From an uncultured Spirochaetaceae bacterium (GTDB lineage Bacteria; Spirochaetota; Spirochaetia; Sphaerochaetales; Sphaerochaetaceae), in assembly GCA_944392985.1 (NCBI GenBank), contig CALXYL010000010.1, positions 1-64,000 of the forward strand: a stretch of DNA of 64,000 nucleotides, read 5' to 3'. Below, one piece after another: positions 18,650 through 29,838 of this stretch (positions are counted from its first letter, which is position 1; each line of letters starts with the position of its first letter). The notes beneath the pieces were generated by a model, which was not told the DNA's origin, searched no databases, and saw only the letters and a list, made by a program, of their open reading frames with translations. The position numbers were made by a program, and so were the translations under genes.

Positions 18650-19197
18650 TATACCTCGAGCTGCTATGGGCATTCATCCAGATCGGGTTATTCAGCATCG
18701 GAGGAGGATACGCCGCGATGCCGCTCATCCAGCATCAGGCGATAGACGTGCATGGCTGGCTCACGATGCAGAGCTTCGCGGATATAATGACAATTTCCCA
18801 GATGACACCTGGCCCCATAGCGATAAACGCCGCGACCTTCGTTGGCATCCAGACCGCGGGGATCCCCGGCGCGCTTGTTGCGACATTCGGCTGTGTGCTG
18901 CCCTCTTCCATCATCGTGCTGTCGCTTGCATTCATCTACTACCGGTTCAAAGGGCTGAAGGCCATGGACAGCATCCTGAAAGGGCTCAGGCCAGCAGTTG
19001 TTGCTATGATCGCCTCCGCAGCTCTTTCCCTGATTGCAATGGCCTTCTGGCCAGAAGGCATGGAAGGCTCCACGGACTGGCTGAATGCAGCAATCTTCAT
19101 CCTGGCCCTTCTGATCCTGAGGATATGGAAACCCAATCCGATCATCGTCATGGCAGCGGCCGGATGCATCGGGATCGCAGCTTCATTCCTTGTATAG
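18646..19197 (+). CDS. chrA: Chromate transporter, second half-size subunit
   Basis: A 183-residue half-size ChrA, homologous to the preceding protein. Motifs are FSIGGGYAAMPLIQHQ, then MTISQMTPGPIAINAATFVGIQTAGIPGALVATFGCVLPSSIIVL. Translation is coupled to the first half (ATGA overlap, ribosome site within the upstream gene). Half-size CHR subunits are thought to insert in opposite orientations. Its 3' end overlaps the convergent panE gene by 15 bases. Confidence 0.9.
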   Translation: MIYLELLWAFIQIGLFSIGGGYAAMPLIQHQAIDVHGWLTMQSFADIMTISQMTPGPIAINAATFVGIQTAGIPGALVATFGCVLPSSIIVLSLAFIYYRFKGLKAMDSILKGLRPAVVAMIASAALSLIAMAFWPEGMEGSTDWLNAAIFILALLILRIWKPNPIIVMAAAGCIGIAASFLV

Positions 19198-20190
19198 CGC
19201 GAGATTTTCCATGGAAGGGACAAGCCGGCCTTCAGTGATTCGATGAACGATCCAGATCGTCCTGTCTGTGATCGGCGTTGGAACACCGGCTCTTCTTCCC
19301 TCATGGGAAAGCGCGCCATCGATTGCGTCGATTTCGGTCATTCTCCCCTTCTCGATATCCTGCAGCATTGAGGATTTCAGATTCCTATGACGGCGCATGG
19401 CAATCGGTATGAGCATGAATGAGATCAGCTTGTGCAGGGGATTCTCCGCATTGGCTATGAATGATACATCCTTTCCCTGCATCGGAGCGAAGCGTATTCC
19501 CTTGGCCTTTGCGACTGCGGCGCACTCACGGAGTATCCCCTGTATGATACGGCGTGACCTGAAAGCGGAGGCAGCCTCGCCGAACGTGCACCCCGTGACA
19601 GCGGAGACAGCTGAGAAGGAGGCATTGATCAGCAATTTGGACCAGCGCGATCCGATGAAGTCCTGATCTATCTCCGCCGTACCCATCCTAGAAAGAATCG
19701 ACTTGAGAATGACAAGATTGCCGTCGGTTCCGCCTGAAAGCGAGCCTAGGGTGAATGTGAATGTCCCCTCGCCGCTTGTCAGCTCAGAGACACCGGGGCC
19801 AATATACGTCGCACCCCAGCCGATAGTGCAACCATATGTCCTATCGTTTCCGATGATCCTGGCAATCCCCTCCTCAGGAAGGCCGTTCTGGCAGGTGCAG
19901 ATAATGCCGCGCCCAGAAAGATGGGAAGAGAGGAAGTAAACTATCCCGTCATTGCCGATGCTCTTCGTCATGAGGAAGATCACATCGTAGTCTGACCCCA
20001 TCTGCTCCGGCAGCATCGCAGAGACAGGGACGGTGAAATCCACCATCCCCGTCACATGCGCGCCCCTTTCCTGAAGCGCCTCTATATGGGCTCTGTTATG
20101 GGAAACGAGATCAACAGCCAGCCCGGAACGGGCAAGGTAGGCACCAAGCACCGTTCCAAGGCTTCCAGCTCCGTAGATCGCGATACGCAT
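19183..20190 (-). CDS. panE: 2-dehydropantoate 2-reductase
   Basis: A 335-residue ApbA/PanE protein that reduces ketopantoate to pantoate with NADPH for CoA synthesis. The N-terminal Rossmann motif is YGAGSLGTVLGAYLA. The C-terminal catalytic part has the substrate Lys/Asn region SRWSKLLINASFSAVSAVTG. It is the last gene of the branched-chain amino acid operon, immediately after ilvB. That context fits, because ketopantoate derives from 2-ketoisovalerate, the product of IlvD. No panB or panC is near, so an alternative 2-keto acid reductase role is possible. Confidence 0.88.
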   Translation of the reverse strand: MRIAIYGAGSLGTVLGAYLARSGLAVDLVSHNRAHIEALQERGAHVTGMVDFTVPVSAMLPEQMGSDYDVIFLMTKSIGNDGIVYFLSSHLSGRGIICTCQNGLPEEGIARIIGNDRTYGCTIGWGATYIGPGVSELTSGEGTFTFTLGSLSGGTDGNLVILKSILSRMGTAEIDQDFIGSRWSKLLINASFSAVSAVTGCTFGEAASAFRSRRIIQGILRECAAVAKAKGIRFAPMQGKDVSFIANAENPLHKLISFMLIPIAMRRHRNLKSSMLQDIEKGRMTEIDAIDGALSHEGRRAGVPTPITDRTIWIVHRITEGRLVPSMENLALYKE

Positions 20191-21875
20191 CAGGTATTAT
20201 CCTGCAGATCCTCATAACCGATCATATCGGAAATGGAGGCTCCAGGAGCAACCATGGGATAGACCTTGTCATCGGATGGGATGATCGCCTCGACAACCAC
20301 TGCCTCACCAAGCTCCACCGCTTCTTTCAGGATCTTCTCAGGATCATCATCCGGCGTGATCCTCATGCCCTTCACACCGTACGCCTCTGCAAGGCGCACC
20401 CAGTCAAGCGGAGTGTCCAGCGTCGTCTCGGAGTAATGTCCTTCATAGAACAGTGTCTGCCACTGCCTGACCATGCCGAGCGCATGGTTGTTCATTATCA
20501 GGATCATCACAGGCAGTCTGTAGCGTGCAATCGTGGCAAGCTCATTTGCATTCATGCGGAAGGATCCATCCCCCGCGATATTCACCACCCTCTTGTCAGG
20601 ATGCGAGACCTGCGCACCGATCGCGGCTCCCGTACCATATCCCATCGTTCCGAGACCGCCGGATGTCAGGAAATGCCGTGGCTCCCTCGAATGGAGGAAC
20701 TGAGCGGCCCACATCTGATGCTGTCCGACTTCCGTCGTTATGAATCCATCCTTCGGGAACACCTTGTCGAGGGCCTCGATGATCTGCTTAGGGCGTGCGG
20801 CATCGGAGGAGACCTTCAGAGGATAGCGCTTCCTCGCCTTCTCAACAGATGCCATCCACTCAGAATGATCAAGCTGTCCACCGATCCTCTCCATGATCGC
20901 CTTCAATGCCACCTTCACATCAGCTACGACATGCACAGAGGATATGATGTTCTTGTTGAACTCAGCGGGATCCACATCAATCTGTATGATCTTCGCCTGC
21001 TTCGCGAATGTCGAGCTCTTGGAGATGACGCGGTCAGAGAAGCGGGCTCCGATGACGATCAGCAGGTCACACCGGTTGATCGACAGGTTTGAAAGCCTTG
21101 TCCCATGCATTCCGATCATGCCTGTAAAGCGAGGAGAGGAGGAATCCATCGCACCAAGGCCCATAAGGGATGACCCGACTGGCGCGTCGATGAGATCGAC
21201 GAAATCCCTCAGCTCAGCTGCTGCATCGGAACGTATCACACCGCCCCCGATATAGCACATGGGCCTTTCAGATGCCCGGATCAGCCCAACTGCATCATCG
21301 ATGTCCTTATCCCGGAGCCTGGAGCGGACAGGAGAAGGCTCGGCAATCTCCCTTGCCTCATACTCATACTCCCCGACCTGGATATCCTTGGGAACGTCAA
21401 TAAGAACAGGTCCCGGCCTTCCTTCCTTTGCGATGCGGAAAGCCTCACGCACTGTATCAGCAAGTTCGGAAATATCCTTCACGATATAGTTATGCTTAGT
21501 GACAGTAAGCGTGATGCCCCTGATATCCACCTCCTGGAAGCTGTCACGTCCCAGTAGGGAAAGGGGGACATTGCCTGTGATCGCGATCATCGGCACCGAG
21601 TCCATATAAGCTGTAGCAAGTCCGGTCACGAGATTCGTCGCCCCAGGACCGGAGGTGGCGATGCAGACTCCCACCTTCCCTGTCGATCTTGAGTACCCAT
21701 CAGCTGCATGGCTTGCACCCTGCTCATGTGCAGTGAGGATATGCCTTATCCTTCCTCTGTTCCTGTATATCGCATCATAGAGGGGGATCACCTGTCCTCC
21801 GGGATAGCCGAATACCGTATCAACCCCTTCCTCAATGAGGCATTCGATGATGATATCTGCACCTGTCATCCTCAT
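20190..21875 (-). CDS. ilvB: Acetolactate synthase large subunit
   Basis: A 561-residue thiamine-diphosphate enzyme condensing pyruvate with pyruvate or 2-ketobutyrate. The start at 21875 is preferred because GGAG lies 8 bases upstream. Motifs are VFGYPGGQVIPLYDAI, HEQGASHAADGYSRSTGKVGVC with the catalytic Glu, and the ThDP-binding stretch NIAGDGSFRMNANELATIARYRLPVMILIMNN. The small subunit gene is at the other end of the operon, 7 kb upstream, which is unusual since ilvB and ilvN normally adjoin. It overlaps ilvD by a few bases. Confidence 0.96.
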   Translation of the reverse strand: MRMTGADIIIECLIEEGVDTVFGYPGGQVIPLYDAIYRNRGRIRHILTAHEQGASHAADGYSRSTGKVGVCIATSGPGATNLVTGLATAYMDSVPMIAITGNVPLSLLGRDSFQEVDIRGITLTVTKHNYIVKDISELADTVREAFRIAKEGRPGPVLIDVPKDIQVGEYEYEAREIAEPSPVRSRLRDKDIDDAVGLIRASERPMCYIGGGVIRSDAAAELRDFVDLIDAPVGSSLMGLGAMDSSSPRFTGMIGMHGTRLSNLSINRCDLLIVIGARFSDRVISKSSTFAKQAKIIQIDVDPAEFNKNIISSVHVVADVKVALKAIMERIGGQLDHSEWMASVEKARKRYPLKVSSDAARPKQIIEALDKVFPKDGFITTEVGQHQMWAAQFLHSREPRHFLTSGGLGTMGYGTGAAIGAQVSHPDKRVVNIAGDGSFRMNANELATIARYRLPVMILIMNNHALGMVRQWQTLFYEGHYSETTLDTPLDWVRLAEAYGVKGMRITPDDDPEKILKEAVELGEAVVVEAIIPSDDKVYPMVAPGASISDMIGYEDLQDNT

Positions 21876-21877
21876 GA

Positions 21878-23551
21878 TCAATCCTCCACGACAATAGCAC
21901 CCTGGCGGGCAGATGTGACATGCTTCGAGTATCTGTAGAGATACCCCGTCCTTATCGGTGACTCATGGGGAGCAAGATGCTTCCTTCTCTCCTCCAGCGT
22001 ATCCCTGTCAACGAGCACATCCAGCTTTCCTCCGGGGATATCGATTGAGATCATGTCACCTTCTTCAACAAGGGCGATCGGACCACCGGCAGCAGCCTCC
22101 GGAGAGACATGGCCAATGGAAGCGCCGCGGGTTGCGCCGGAGAAGCGTCCATCGGTGATCAAGGCGACTTCCTTATCCAGCCCCATGCCAGCGATAGCCG
22201 ATGTAGGACTGAGCATCTCGCGCATTCCCGGACCTCCCTTCGGTCCTTCATAGCGGATGATGATCACATCGCCTGGCTTGATTCTCTTGCCGAAGATAGC
22301 GGCAATCGCCTTCTCCTCGCTGTTGAATACCCTCGCAGGCCCCTGATGCACGAACATCTCAGGAGCGACGGCGCTCCTTTTCACGACCGCGCCTTCAGGA
22401 GCGAGGCTTCCCTTCAGCACCGCGATTCCACCGGTTTCTGAATATGGATTGTCTATCGGCCTTATGACCTCGGTATCTGTATTCCTTGCCTTCGCGATGG
22501 ATTCACCGATGCTCCTTCCCGTGACCGTAGGCAGGGACAGATCGATAAGATCGCGCCTTGCAAGCTCCTTCATCACAGCCATCACACCACCCGCCTGATA
22601 GAGATCCTCCATATGATGCGGCCCTGCGGGAGCCAGATGGCAGAGGTTCGGGACAACTGCGGAGATATCATTCGCCTGGAAGATATCGATCTCAACGCCC
22701 GCTTCATGGGCAATCGCAGGCAGGTGGAGCATCGTATTGGTGGAACAACCAAGCGCCATATCGACCTTGAGGGCATTGATGAATGCCTTCTCGGTCAGGA
22801 TGCTGCGCGCCGTGATGCCGCTCCTGAGAAGCTCCATCACCTGATACCCCGCTTCCTTTGCAAGCCTGAGGCGCTCTGAGTAGACCGCAGGTATCGTGCC
22901 ATTGCCGGGAAGTCCCATTCCGATCGCCTCCGTCAGGCAGTTCATCGAGTTGGCTGTGTACATTCCCGAACAGGAACCGCAGGAAGGACACGCGCTGTTC
23001 TCCCACTCAAGGAGCTCGGCATCATCCATTGTTCCCGCCGCGTGCTTTCCGACAGCCTCGAACATCGAGGAGAGGGACATGCCACGCTTGTCACCGCCCT
23101 TGACGTGCCCAGCAAGCATAGGGCCGCCGGAGACGAAGATGGAAGGAAGGTCAAGCCTCGCAGCAGCCATCAGCATCCCCGGGACGATCTTGTCGCAGTT
23201 GGGTATGAACACCAGAGCATCGAATGGATGGGCTGTCGCCATGACTTCGATCGAGTCAGCAATGAGCTCACGTGACGCAAGCGAGTATTTCATTCCCTTG
23301 TGCCCCATGGCGATACCATCGCATACACCGATGACAGGGAACATCACGGGGTTTCCCCCATTCTCCCTGACACCAGCCTTCACAGCCTCCGCAATACTCT
23401 GGAGCTGCATGTGGCCGGGAATGATCTCATTATGGGCACAGACAATGCCGATCGTCGGCATCGCGATCTCCCTGTCAGTCCAGCCAAGCGCCTTCATCAG
23501 CGACCTGTGCGGCGCCTTGTCAACGCCGCTCTTCATTGCATCGGATCTCAT
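21878..23551 (-). CDS. ilvD: Dihydroxy-acid dehydratase
   Basis: A 557-residue iron-sulfur dehydratase making 2-ketoisovalerate and 2-keto-3-methylvalerate. Cluster cysteines are visible in [13 protein letters not shown] and [23 protein letters not shown]. Other signatures are [18 protein letters not shown] and [20 protein letters not shown]. The length is typical. AGGAGG precedes the ATG. The start overlaps the end of leuB by 4 bases. Confidence 0.97.
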
Positions 23552-24615
23552 CCAATCCTCCTGATTATCTCACTGCAACACGCTTGAGTGCCGACGTACT
23601 CCTCGCCTTCAGAAGCGATATCCTTCGTCCGCACTCCATCGGCGAGCGCCGCCTCAACAGCATCCTCGATCGCCTTCGCCTCCTTCTCCAATGAGAACGA
23701 GTAGCGCAGCATCATCGCGGCAGAGAGGATCGTGGCGATCGGGTTCGCAAGATCCCTCCCCGCGATATCCGGGGCAGAGCCATGGATCGGCTCATACATC
23801 CCAAACGCATCATCCCTTAGCGATGCCGAGGCAAGCATACCAATCGATCCGGTGATCATCGAAGCCTCATCGGAAAGGATGTCTCCGAACATGTTCTCAG
23901 TCAGAAGCACATCGAAATGGCGTGGATCGCGTACCAGCTGCATCGAAGCATTGTCTACATACATGAAATCAAGCTCGACATCGCTGTATGAGGTTGCGAT
24001 GGCGGATACAGTCTCCCTCCAGAGTCGGGATGTCTCAAGGACATTCGCCTTGTCGACGACTGTCACCCTCCTCCGTCTGAGCCTCGCCGCCTCAAACGCC
24101 TTCCTTGCGATGCGCTCGATCTCCGCCTTTGAGTAGCTCATCACATCATATGCGCTTCCGCCATCCTCGCTCCTGCCCTTCTCACCGAAGTAGATTCCCC
24201 CTGTCAGCTCACGGACAACGACAAGATCGACTCCGCCGGAGATGACGGACTGCTTCAATGGAGAGGCAGCGGCAAGCTCAGGGTAGATCCTTGCGGGACG
24301 CAGATTGCAGAAAAGCCCCAGACCGCTTCTCAGACCGAGAAGAGCCTTCTCCGGGCGGAGGCTGCCGGGCATATGATCCCACTTGGGGCCTCCGACGGCA
24401 CCGAGAAGCACGGCATCAGACTCTGCAGCGCTCTCCAGCGCATCCTCTGTCAGCGGCCTTCCGTATCTGTCTATCGAGATACCACCCGCATCGATTTCCC
24501 TGTATGAGATGCTGTGCCCGAACCTATCGGCTGTCCTGTCCAGCACGCGGACGGCAGAACGCACGATATCAGGGCCGATGCCATCTCCTGGCACCAGCGC
24601 AATATGCATTTCCAT
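23548..24615 (-). CDS. leuB: 3-isopropylmalate dehydrogenase
   Basis: A 355-residue NAD-dependent dehydrogenase of leucine synthesis. The N-terminus [14 protein letters not shown] is characteristic. [13 protein letters not shown] and [15 protein letters not shown] belong to the isopropylmalate subgroup. [41 protein letters not shown] carries the metal-binding Asp residues, and [20 protein letters not shown] the NAD loop. Its ATG overlaps the leuD stop (TGATG). Confidence 0.97.
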
Positions 24616-25103
24616 CAGAAATTCTCCTTGATATACTCCGCCAGTCCGCCAGCCTCGATAAGACGCTGCATGAACGGCGGGAATGGTTCCGCCTTGTACT
24701 CCTTCCCCGTTGTCTCATCATGGATGACCCCCGTGGAGAAATCGATGGAGACCTTATCGCCCTCAGCGATCTCCGCTGAAGCCTCAGGGCATTCAAGTAT
24801 AGGAAGCCCGATGTTGATCGAATTGCGGAAGAAGATCCTGGCGAATGTGGAAGCGATGACGCAGCTGACACCTGATTCCTTGATGGCAATCGGGGCATGC
24901 TCGCGGGATGAGCCGCAGCCGAAATTCCTTCCTGCCACGATGATGTCACCCGCGCTTACACGCTTCACGAAAGTGCTGTCAAGATCCTCCATGCAGTGCG
25001 AGGCAAGCTCCTTCCTGTCCGATGTGTTGAGATAGCGCGCAGGGATGATCACATCCGTGTCAACGTTATCGCCATAGCGGAAAACACGTCCCTCAGCCTT
25101 CAT
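24615..25103 (-). CDS. leuD: 3-isopropylmalate dehydratase small subunit
   Basis: A 162-residue swivel-domain subunit. The N-terminus [19 protein letters not shown] and the loop [18 protein letters not shown] with the substrate-binding Arg are diagnostic. The short length places it with the archaeal/clostridial-type LeuD. GGAGGTGGGG precedes the start, which overlaps leuC by 11 bases. It works with LeuC as a heterodimer. Confidence 0.96.
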
Positions 25104-26364
25104 ACCCCACCTCCTCTGGATCGGCGATGTACCCCATCACGGCACTTGCGGCCGCGACCTCTGGCGAGGCAAGATAGATCTCGCTCCTCACATGGCCCAT
25201 GCGCCCTACGAAATTGCGGTTCGTAGTCGAAACGCAGCGCTCCCCTTCTGCAAGTATTCCCATGTAGCCGCCAAGGCATGGCCCGCATGTCGGGGTGGAA
25301 ACAACACAGCCCGCTTCGACGAAGATATCGAAAAGGCCCTCATGCATCGCTTCAAGCCATATCCTCTGCGTAGCAGGGATGATGATACACCTCACCCCTG
25401 GTGCGATCTTCCGCCCCTTGAGGATACGCGCTGCCGCCTCAAGATCGGAAAGACGACCATTCGTGCAGCTTCCTATGACAACCTGATCGATCCTGATGTC
25501 CTTCCCATCCTTCGCGCTGTGCGTATTCTCGGGAAGATGAGGATAGGAAACCGTCGGCACGATCTGTGAAAGATCGATATCGATCGTCTTCTCGAATTCA
25601 GCATCAGGATCGGAGGCGAAGATCTTCGGCTCAGCGGCCCCATGCTCCTTCAGGTACTGGAGCGTCAGGTCATCGACGGGGAATATCCCATTCTTCGCGC
25701 CAGCCTCTATCGCCATGTTGGCAACTGTGAAGCGGTCATCCATCGTCAGGGAGTGCACACCATCACCTGAGAACTCCATCGCCCTATACAGAGCGCCATC
25801 GACACCGATCATTCCGATGATCGTGAGTATGAGATCCTTTCCGGAAACATGCGGCCTGAACTTGCCTGAAAGGCGGAAGCGGATTGTCGAAGGCACCTTG
25901 AACCACGCCTTGCCTATAGCCATGCCCGCCGCCATGTCAGTGGAGCCGACACCGGTCGAGAATGCACCAAGGGCACCATATGTACAGGTATGGCTATCAG
26001 CACCGATGACGGTATCCCCTGCAGTGACAAGCCCCTGCTCCGGCAGCAGTGCATGCTCGATGCCGACCCTGCCGACCTCGAAGTAGTTCGTGATGCCTTC
26101 CTTTGAGGCGAACGCGCGGACACATGCGCACTGCTCAGCGGCCTTTATGTCCTTGTTCGGCGTGAAATGATCGGGCACAAGCGCTATCTTCGTCCTGTCG
26201 AACACCTTGTCCTTGCCGAATCTGGGGAACTCCTTGATCGCGACGGGACTTGTGATATCATTGCCAAGCACCATGTCCAGATCAGCCATGATCAGCTGTC
26301 CCGGATGCACCTCTGGAAGCCCTGCCGCATGGGCGAGGATCTTCTCCGTCATCGTCATTGCCAT
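25093..26364 (-). CDS. leuC: 3-isopropylmalate dehydratase large subunit
   Basis: A 423-residue aconitase-family subunit. The ATG at 26364 is preferred over an upstream GTG because GGAGG is 7 bases away. The 4Fe-4S cysteines are in VIGSCTNGR and the CGPCLGG loop ([18 protein letters not shown]). [23 protein letters not shown] is the family signature. The length of about 420 matches the two-subunit homoaconitase-like branch that pairs with short LeuD. The start overlaps the leuA stop. Confidence 0.96.
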
Positions 26365-27959
26365 CACTCGACCTCCTTATCGGTGTGTCCAACAAGCATA
26401 TCGTTATCAAATGTGAGCGTTGACGTCTTGTTGCCACCGGATATCGAGGAGCTGCCGCCTTCAAGCATACGGTTCACAGCCGCGAGGCAGGCGAGTATCG
26501 AAGCCTCGATAACATCCGTGGAGACACCGCGTCCGCGGTATACGCCGCTTCCATCTGATATCTTCACAAGCGCTTCGCCGAGCGCGTCGCGATGTTCCGT
26601 CACAGCCTGGAGCTGGTAGTCATCAAGGGAGAACGGATGGCGGATGATCTTCTCAACCGCCCTGAGCGACGCATAGACAGGGCCGGTTCCAGTTGCGACA
26701 CCCTCGATGATCTTATCGCCGTTCTTAAGCGCGATGCATGCCGTGGACGTGATCTTGTTGCCGCTGTTCACGACGTAGGACGAGAGCGTCCACGTCTGCT
26801 TAGCGACCGCTTCAGTGGCCTCGACAAGCGCCACAATGTCGCGATCAGTGACATTCTTCTTCCTGTCGCAGAGGTTCTTGAACTCCTCGAAGAGCCTTGC
26901 CACATCCGCTTCAGGAAGCACATATCCAAGCTCATCGAGCTTCTTCGAGAAAGCATGCTTGCCTGAGTGCTTGCCAAGGACGTAGTTCGTCTTGACGACG
27001 CCGACGCTTTCCGGGGTCATGATCTCGTACGTCTTTGAATTAGCCATCATGCCATGCTGATGGATTCCTGACTCATGGGCGAATGCATTGTCCCCCACTA
27101 TGGCCTTCGACGGGAAGATCCTCACACCGGTGATGGATGAAAGGAGACGCGCTGAGCGGCAGAGCTCCTCCGTCCTGATTCCCGTCTCGGTGTCATAGAG
27201 ATCCGGTCGGGTCTTCATCGCCATCACAACCTCTTCCAGCGCAGTGTTTCCCGCCCTCTCGCCAATTCCGCAGAGGGTGCATTCAATCTGCCTTGCGCCG
27301 GCCATGACACCCGCGAGGCTGTTTGCGGCTGCAAGCCCGAGATCATCATGGCAGTGCATCGAGATGATTGCCTTGTCGATATTCGGAACCCTGTTCCTGA
27401 CAGCCGACACCATCTCCGTGATATCCCCAGGGGATGCGTAGCCAACGGTATCGGGAAGATTGATCGTCGTCGCGCCTTCCGCGATAGCGGTCTCAACGAC
27501 ACGGCACATATAATCCAGATCGGTACGTGTCGCATCCTCAAGGGAGAACTCGATATCAGGGCAGAGGGAACGGGCATAGCGCACAGCTTCCCTGATCCTT
27601 TCAACAGCCTCGTCCCTCGTCATCCTGAGCTTATACTGCAGATGAAGGTCCGATGTCGCGAGGAATACGTGGATACGTGGTTTTCTGGCCCTCTTCACAG
27701 CATTCCATGCGGCATCGATATCCTTTGTGAGAGCACGGGCAAGGGAGGCCACGGTCACATTGTCCACAGCCTTGGAAATAGCCTCGACGCTCTCGAAATC
27801 CCCAGGGGATGAAATGGCAAAGCCGGCTTCTATGATATCCACGCCTAGTGTCTCAAGCTGCTTTGCTACCCTGATCTTCTCCTCCAGGTTCATGCTGTAA
27901 CCAGGAGCCTGCTCTCCATCGCGGAGCGTGGTATCGAATATATAGATCCTCTCTGCCAT
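26364..27959 (-). CDS. leuA: 2-isopropylmalate synthase
   Basis: A 531-residue enzyme condensing acetyl-CoA with 2-ketoisovalerate, the committed step to leucine. The catalytic barrel begins [33 protein letters not shown] and [20 protein letters not shown] follow, with metal-binding HCHDD ([16 protein letters not shown]). The C-terminal part (about 390-520) is the regulatory domain that binds leucine, so feedback inhibition is likely in addition to attenuation. GGAGGGGAAGG precedes the start. Confidence 0.96.
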
Positions 27960-27974: not shown

Positions 27975-28979
<1,005 letters not shown>

Positions 28980-29516
28980 TTATCTATCGCCTTCGTCTCC
29001 GAAGGTTGTTTCCGAAATCGGTCTCGAACCACGTTCGAGAGCTGTTATTCCAGTCCTGACGAGCTCGACAATGCCATATGGCCTCGCAAGCTCCAGAAAG
29101 GACTCCAGTTTATCGAGGGACCCAGTAAGCTGCATCGTTATCGTTGTCGGTGTCACATCAAGGATCTTCGCCTTGAATATCTCCCCGATCTCGACGATTG
29201 CACCGCGGGAAGCGCTGTCCGCCTTGATCTTCACAAGCACGAGCTCCCGCTGAATGGAGCCGCTTCGGGTCATCTCATAGACCTTTATGACATCGACCAG
29301 CTTCTCAACCTGCCTGATGATCTGCTCAACAATCTGCCTGTCCCCTGTCACGACGATTGTGATGCGGCTTCTGGAAGGATCCTCCGTCTCACCCACAGAG
29401 AGGGAATCGATGTTATAGCCACGGCGCGAGAAGAGGGCTACGACCCTCATCAGTACGCTCGGCCTGTTGTAGACAAGGATCGCAAGCGTATAGCTGTTCT
29501 CATTCCCATATACCAT
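28980..29516 (-). CDS. ilvN: Acetolactate synthase small (regulatory) subunit
   Basis: A 178-residue regulatory subunit. The start at 29516 is supported by GGAGG 7 bases upstream. An N-terminal ACT domain (LAILVYNRPSVLMRVVALFSRRGYNIDSLSVGETEDPSRSRITIVV) senses valine, and the C-terminal domain (GIVELVRTGITALERG) is the ALS_ss_C type. It is the first structural gene after the attenuator, while its catalytic partner is near the end of the same operon. Confidence 0.95.
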   Translation of the reverse strand: MVYGNENSYTLAILVYNRPSVLMRVVALFSRRGYNIDSLSVGETEDPSRSRITIVVTGDRQIVEQIIRQVEKLVDVIKVYEMTRSGSIQRELVLVKIKADSASRGAIVEIGEIFKAKILDVTPTTITMQLTGSLDKLESFLELARPYGIVELVRTGITALERGSRPISETTFGDEGDR

Positions 29517-29530
29517 CCCAGAACCTCCAG

Positions 29531-29568
29531 AAAACAAAAATGCCCGCGGTTTTCATTGCACCACGGGC
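29531..29568 (-). terminator. ilv operon attenuator terminator
   Basis: On the minus strand GCCCGTGGT pairs with ACCGCGGGC around a 9-base loop and is followed by ATTTTTGTTTT. It lies 15 bases before ilvN. Its 5' arm can alternatively pair with ACCACGG (complement of 29592-29598) to form an antiterminator. Confidence 0.9.
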
Positions 29569-29598
29569 TTACACATCACCATATGCTCAAACCGTGGT

Positions 29599-29664
29599 TC
29601 AGCATCTAATGACGAGTACGGATAGAAGGAGAGCTGAAGAAATAGATGATGGTCTGTCATTCAT
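29599..29664 (-). CDS. ilvL: Branched-chain operon leader peptide
   Basis: A 21-codon frame preceded by AGGAGGAGACAGGA. It reads MNDRPSSISSALLLSVLVIR followed by one Cys. Eight codons are Ile, Leu or Val, with the run ALLLSVLVI near the end. The antiterminator arm starts directly after its stop codon, and the terminator follows 31 bases later. This is the layout of ribosome-mediated attenuation as in ilvGMEDA and leuABCD leaders. Scarce charged tRNA would stall the ribosome and favour readthrough. Confidence 0.88.
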   Translation of the reverse strand: MNDRPSSISSALLLSVLVIRC

Positions 29665-29695
29665 TCCTGTCTCCTCCTTGATTGCGATTTACCTT

Positions 29696-29725
29696 CTTAT
29701 ACGGCAACAGACGCAATAATGTCAA
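29696..29725 (-). promoter_or_regulatory. ilv-leu operon promoter
   Basis: On the minus strand TTGACA, 18 bases, TATAAG. Transcription would begin near 29689, about 25 bases before the leader-peptide start. Confidence 0.8.
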
Positions 29726-29772
29726 CAAACCCTGAGTAGAAAATGCAGGAATATGCAGAAAAATGCATACGA

Positions 29773-29838
29773 TCACTTCTTCTTGACCAAGGCCCAGATA
29801 ATCACGCCTCCAAGAAGGCATACGATGATCGCTTCCAT
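29773..29838 (-). CDS. Small membrane peptide after HAD gene
   Basis: A 21-codon frame whose ATG directly follows the HAD gene stop (TGAATG), which suggests translational coupling. It encodes MEAIIVCLLGGVIIWALV followed by KKK: one membrane helix with a positive cytoplasmic end. There is no separate Shine-Dalgarno site. It could be a small membrane protein of unknown role or a chance frame; no homology can be seen by eye. Confidence 0.35.
   Translation of the reverse strand: MEAIIVCLLGGVIIWALVKKK

Follow-up and report, generated by a model that had tools for sequence, protein, structure and literature searches.

In a gut spirochaete, an ilv-leu operon of nine genes is preceded by a leader region that is very probably a ribosome-mediated transcription attenuator. 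The operon lies on the minus strand of the window, i.e. the whole stretch of 64,000 nucleotides that was analysed. The leader displays the testable defining features of known leader-peptide attenuators, in a phylum for which no earlier report of such an attenuator was found in the open-licence literature; priority is not claimed. The parts of the leader, their conservation, the enrichment in rare codons and the foldability of both conformers are direct observations.

The operon and its host

The operon has the order ilvN-ilvC-leuA-leuC-leuD-leuB-ilvD-ilvB-panE-like (Table 1), which is kept among relatives. According to the open reading frames and profile matches of the window, its nine neighbouring ORFs overlap or are separated by gaps of at most 15 nt; the start of ilvN was taken as the ATG at 29516. 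The preliminary description, made from the DNA alone, had spoken of a nine-gene ilv-leu operon in a probable spirochaete. The nine close or overlapping ORFs are indeed present, but only eight of them are ilv or leu genes, the ninth encoding a homologue of 2-dehydropantoate 2-reductase. The host is a spirochaete of the Sphaerochaetaceae, belonging to the Candidatus Ornithospirochaeta group according to the names of its closest relatives, which are Spirochaetaceae/Spirochaetales MAGs and Candidatus Ornithospirochaeta.

Table 1. Coordinates in the window of the leader elements, the operon genes and a neighbouring palindrome
Feature	Coordinates	Strand	Basis or remark
ARG-box-like palindrome, possible ArgR operator	29752..29769	.	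match to TNTGNATWWWWATNCANA
-35 hexamer TTGACA	29720..29725	-	sequence; conserved in genus
-10 hexamer TATAAG, spacer 18	29696..29701	-	sequence; conserved in genus
Leader Shine-Dalgarno AAGGAGGAG	29671..29679	-	sequence
Leader peptide MNDRPSSISSALLLSVLVIRC*	29599..29664	-	21 codons, stop TGA; 8 Ile/Leu/Val
Segment 2, ACCACGG, antiterminator 5' arm	29592..29598	-	directly 3' of leader TGA
Antiterminator inner hairpin (GCATAT/ATGTGT)	29571..29586	-	fold; two-sided changes in relatives
Segment 3, GCCCGTGGT, common to antiterminator and terminator	29560..29568	-	fold, conservation
Segment 4, ACCGCGGGC, terminator 3' arm	29542..29550	-	fold, stem alignment
U tract ATTTTTGTTTT	29531..29541	-	sequence
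ilvN, acetolactate synthase small subunit	28980..29516	-	NF008864, 207.9 bits
ilvC, ketol-acid reductoisomerase	27975..28967	-	profile search
leuA, 2-isopropylmalate synthase	26364..27959	-	profile search
leuC, 3-isopropylmalate dehydratase large subunit	25093..26367	-	profile search
leuD, 3-isopropylmalate dehydratase small subunit	24615..25103	-	profile search
leuB, 3-isopropylmalate dehydrogenase	23548..24615	-	profile search
ilvD, dihydroxy-acid dehydratase	21878..23551	-	profile search
ilvB, acetolactate synthase large subunit	20190..21881	-	profile search
2-dehydropantoate 2-reductase (panE-like)	19183..20190	-	TIGR00745, 164.8 bits

Elements of the leader region

Every element proposed in the preliminary description, i.e. 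the promoter TTGACA-N18-TATAAG, a 21-codon leader with eight Ile/Leu/Val codons, the ACCACGG arm and the terminator, is found on the minus strand, and the count of eight codons is exact. The control codons are, in order, CTC CTT CTA TCC GTA CTC GTC ATT. The leader is a short ORF that has its own ribosome-binding site and an excess of codons for the amino acids that are the end products of the operon. A 9-bp stem and the U tract form an intrinsic terminator before the first structural gene, and the Shine-Dalgarno sequence and ATG of ilvN follow this tract. A generic consensus scan of the window flagged neither the ilv promoter nor the terminator, because it accepts only -10 hexamers ending in T and loops of at most 8, whereas here the hexamer ends with G and the terminator loop is 9. 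Both are nevertheless conserved across the genus.

Conservation of the leader and choice of control codons

A homologue of ilvN was found in 94 of 139 genomes of the family (an order-level search gave the same 139 genomes), and the DNA upstream of ilvN was collected from 91 loci, 90 of them distinct. A strict pattern, in which the ORF stops at a CC(A/G)CNN arm and a CCGTGG-type partner follows further downstream, is present in 87 of the 91; three more (L055, L059 and L061) carry a diverged version recognized by eye, and the leader is absent from one member of the genus (L036). This conservation in about 90 related loci, as judged by sequence comparison, is decisive for considering the predicted attenuator elements as real.

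Among 86 distinct leaders, the stop codon lies 0–1 nt from the arm in 82, while its identity varies (TGA 48, TAA 22, TAG 16). Such a fixed spacing with a changing stop codon is expected if termination of translation has to place a ribosome over the arm. The leader codons, whose comparison in related genomes had been proposed as a possible refutation, are conserved. Indeed, in 39 loci of the genus, codons -3, -4, -5, -6, -8, -9 and -10 specify Ile, Leu or Val in 90–100% of cases, and codons -1 and -2 do so in 0% and 10%. A stalled ribosome covers about 12 nt past the first base of the A site. Given this textbook footprint, segment 2 stays essentially free only if the ribosome stalls at codon -3 or earlier, and the two non-control spacer codons fit the mechanism. 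The stop codon adjoins segment 2 and the control codons of the genus end where such a footprint would require.

The choice among synonymous codons is also biased. Within the final 15 codons of the genus leaders, CTA accounts for 31.5% of the codons for Leu, against 1.9% (5/261) in the nine operon genes and 1.5% in 18 ORFs of the window, and 84 of 86 leaders contain it. GTA and ATT show enrichment in leaders too. The theory of Elf and Ehrenberg designates CUA as the sensitive Leu control codon (PMC1183508), and experiments on Salmonella leu, as cited in that paper, point in the same direction.

These data bear on two other explanations. According to the first, a constitutive terminator merely lowers operon expression and the hydrophobic ORF is fortuitous. 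Composition alone provides some room for this, as chance yields eight or more Ile/Leu/Val codons out of 20 with p = 0.06, which is weak evidence of a leader, but 7 of the 8 codons from -3 to -10 of the window leader are Ile, Leu or Val (p = 2e-4), the arrangement is conserved across about 90 loci with rare codons enriched in leaders, and hisG is preceded by a His leader of the same logic in 17 of 20 members of the genus, so that this explanation is extremely improbable. The second, hardly more credible, is that the RNA is a riboswitch or a protein-binding element, responding to a metabolite, a regulator or, as a T-box, to tRNA, with an incidental short ORF. The near-invariant arms ACCACGG and GCCCGTGG would suit a binding site too, and the host genome does have a T-box before thrS; nevertheless, Rfam, T-box included, gives no match to the leader region even at E = 1, and translation is needed to account for the conserved control codons, the excess of rare codons and a stop-to-arm distance that stays fixed while the stop codon changes.

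Two specific identities were examined and rejected. The T-box model (RF00230), which detects the thrS T-box, has no match up to E = 1 in 29480-29780, and the known Rfam amino-acid leader families of enterobacterial type have none at gathering score or up to E = 1.

Two exclusive predicted RNA structures

In the window, the computed folding energy is -22.9 kcal/mol for the terminator conformer and -16.5 kcal/mol for the antiterminator in an RNA that stops short of segment 4. In all 51 loci of the host genus and of a neighbour genus, stem 2:3 belongs to the minimum-energy fold as long as segment 4 does not exist, and stem 3:4 forms when segment 2 is masked. Segment 3 being shared, the two stems are mutually exclusive, as had been proposed from the window sequence.

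A comparison with related genomes for compensatory changes had been proposed. The two stems are conserved and the terminator stem is compensated: in alignment A1, 87.8% of the pairs of stem 3:4 are standard (32–50% paired in slid controls) and 9 cells are changed on both sides (0/500 shuffles). Stem 2:3 is paired at 95.8% (28–53% in slid controls), but its outer arms are almost invariant and therefore devoid of covariation. Its inner helix, by inspection of relatives, changes on both sides (for example CTGCAG/CTGCAT, CTGTAG/CTACAT, GCGGAAA/TTTCCGT). The support for the antiterminator arm thus comes from invariance, folding and these inner-helix changes.

A protector stem 1:2 is frequent but not universal among leader-peptide attenuators and does not define them. 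Here, the complementarity of the leader to segment 2 is no better than that of codon permutations (mean z +0.17). The Leu run CTCCTTCT (29624-29631) is complementary to the leader's own Shine-Dalgarno sequence (29671-29679), a pairing that could make leader translation self-limiting. The mean energy of pairing between the Leu codons and this sequence is -13.7 kcal/mol, compared with -11.0 kcal/mol when the leader codons are permuted (mean z -1.34), although the loci are non-independent and a cluster of pyrimidine-rich Leu codons could by itself produce such values.

Proposed mechanism

From this arrangement, we infer leader translation, stalling, termination and read-through as follows. Transcription would start near 29689 and a ribosome would load on the leader ORF. 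With charged Leu-, Val- and Ile-tRNAs available, the ribosome would reach the stop codon and cover ACCACGG; segment 3 would then pair with segment 4 and RNA polymerase would terminate 15 nt before ilvN. If Leu, Val or Ile is short, and especially if charged tRNA for the rare CTA codon is lacking, the ribosome would stall at least three codons before the stop; the free segment 2 would pair with the emerging segment 3 and the polymerase would read into all nine genes. As the codons for the three amino acids are interleaved, shortage of any one of them should relieve termination, the decoding of CTA and GTA being probably the most sensitive to shortage. As no conserved 1:2 stem was found, the polymerase should also read on when the leader escapes translation altogether.

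Relatives and the nature of the off-switch

Sphaerochaeta-type leaders have not maintained the spacer, Ile or Leu being frequent at codons -1 and -2. Long Leu/Ile/Val-rich leaders and a CCACGG..CCGTGG hairpin are kept upstream of ilvN in eight such loci (L044, L046, L049, L050, L053, L056, L068 and L070), where a conserved TATACCC-like motif takes the place of the U tract after the next hairpin. Pairing of these leaders with the 3' arm of the downstream hairpin was also considered and is unsupported (mean z -0.32).

More generally, many Sphaerochaeta-type hairpins located after the antiterminator lack a U-rich tail, and the off-switch may differ in these relatives. The existence of distant relatives that carry the leader and the hairpin without such a tail counts against the attenuator reading. 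It is also consistent with control of translation by the leader, in which the 3:4 hairpin would block ribosome entry at ilvN or uncouple translation and the U tract would be incidental. With 15 nt between the end of this tract and the start codon of ilvN, a structure at this place could influence initiation. Within the host genus, however, a conserved U tract comes after stem 3:4 and the ilvN Shine-Dalgarno sequence is outside the stem, which makes translational control very unlikely and favours transcription attenuation.

A broader proposal, which we regard as tentative and rather doubtful, would be that leader-peptide attenuation is an established family-wide strategy in Spirochaetota, for ilv-leu and his, beside the thrS T-box, and that the off-mechanism has changed within the family. 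The U-tract terminator would have disappeared from Sphaerochaeta-type relatives while their leader and antiterminator hairpin persisted, so that the same sensor would act there through Rho or on translation. Inspection by eye of 19 ilvN-upstream loci in other families of spirochaetes revealed no leader of this kind; ilvN is often not the first gene of the operon there, so that absence is only weakly indicated.

Comparison with known systems

In a 2010 survey, leader-peptide systems were then known only from Proteobacteria and Actinobacteria, to which a Firmicutes His case was added (PMC2965389). The statement of the preliminary description that Firmicutes use T-boxes instead is overstated, and the control of nine genes by a single leader, which it presented as notable, is not unique. 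Indeed, a leucine-rich leader-peptide attenuator precedes the nine-gene operon ilvDBNCleuABCDilvA of S. aureus (PMC5794164). Both systems place one leader rich in branched-chain codons before a single ilv-leu operon and rely on a choice between terminator and antiterminator, but that of S. aureus belongs to a Gram-positive host, has an added control by CodY and another gene order, and no sequence relation was noted.

The enterobacterial leu and ilv leaders share with the spirochaete leader a leader peptide, control codons including the rare CUA and exclusive 2:3 and 3:4 stems. By contrast, the spirochaete leader has no Rfam match and no conserved 1:2 stem, and its stop codon abuts segment 2. 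In E. coli, separate leaders serve the separate ilv and leu operons. The ilvBNC operon of Corynebacterium is likewise described as subject to uORF-controlled transcription attenuation, but with a three-hairpin arrangement and in an actinobacterium, as far as the consulted parts of these articles go (PMC10272879, PMC11857589). The ilvB (WRC-14-1) motif of Leptospira, the only related case met with for spirochaetes in the open-licence literature, is also a conserved RNA element before an ilv gene; it has seven representatives and has been put forward as a weak riboswitch candidate, with no leader peptide described in the relevant portion of the source (PMC8632094).

As no sequence relation to known leaders was found, the CUA enrichment looks convergent and would allow the theory of how control codons are chosen to be tested independently. 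The interest of the system, which we consider moderate, lies in its lineage, in this convergent usage and in the large set of natural variants. The family, with about 90 variants and with a T-box beside two attenuated operons in one genome, is useful for comparing ways of sensing uncharged tRNA, and annotators gain a leader peptide to name.

Other regulatory elements of the genome and genus

In the host genome, hisG is preceded by a His leader peptide, MERKIVHIHHAVLVS* (locus L260, G000 C17). The hisG leaders of relatives (L244-L261) carry HHH or HHHH; in the host as in these relatives, GCCATGATGGG and a terminator come between the leader and hisG. The 17 leaders found in the 20 genus genomes searched have 2–5 His codons followed by a terminator, and the hisG leader is a second predicted ribosome-mediated attenuator. 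The T-box upstream of thrS (L284, G000 C11:61127-61352) scores 94.4 bits, above the gathering score. With this T-box beside the predicted ilv and his leaders, the host genome would use a T-box as well as leader-peptide attenuators. No leader was seen by eye before thrA or the prephenate dehydratase gene in the host genus, and no trpE-type (chorismate-binding) gene was found in the host genome.

About 27 bp upstream of the ilv -35 hexamer lies an ARG-box-like palindrome, the only match to TNTGNATWWWWATNCANA with at most one mismatch in the 64 kb (0.08 expected). The best matches in the genus have a mean of 2.6 mismatches, against 4.4 in mononucleotide shuffles, and an ArgR family protein is encoded in all 11 genomes searched, including that of the host. 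These matches suggest that ArgR may add control at the ilv promoter. Further upstream, a 21-aa hydrophobic microprotein ORF, MEAIIVCLLGGVIIWALVKKK* (29838-29773, minus strand), starts right at the stop codon of the upstream HAD-type phosphatase gene, and similar C-termini occur upstream of ilvN in several members of the genus.
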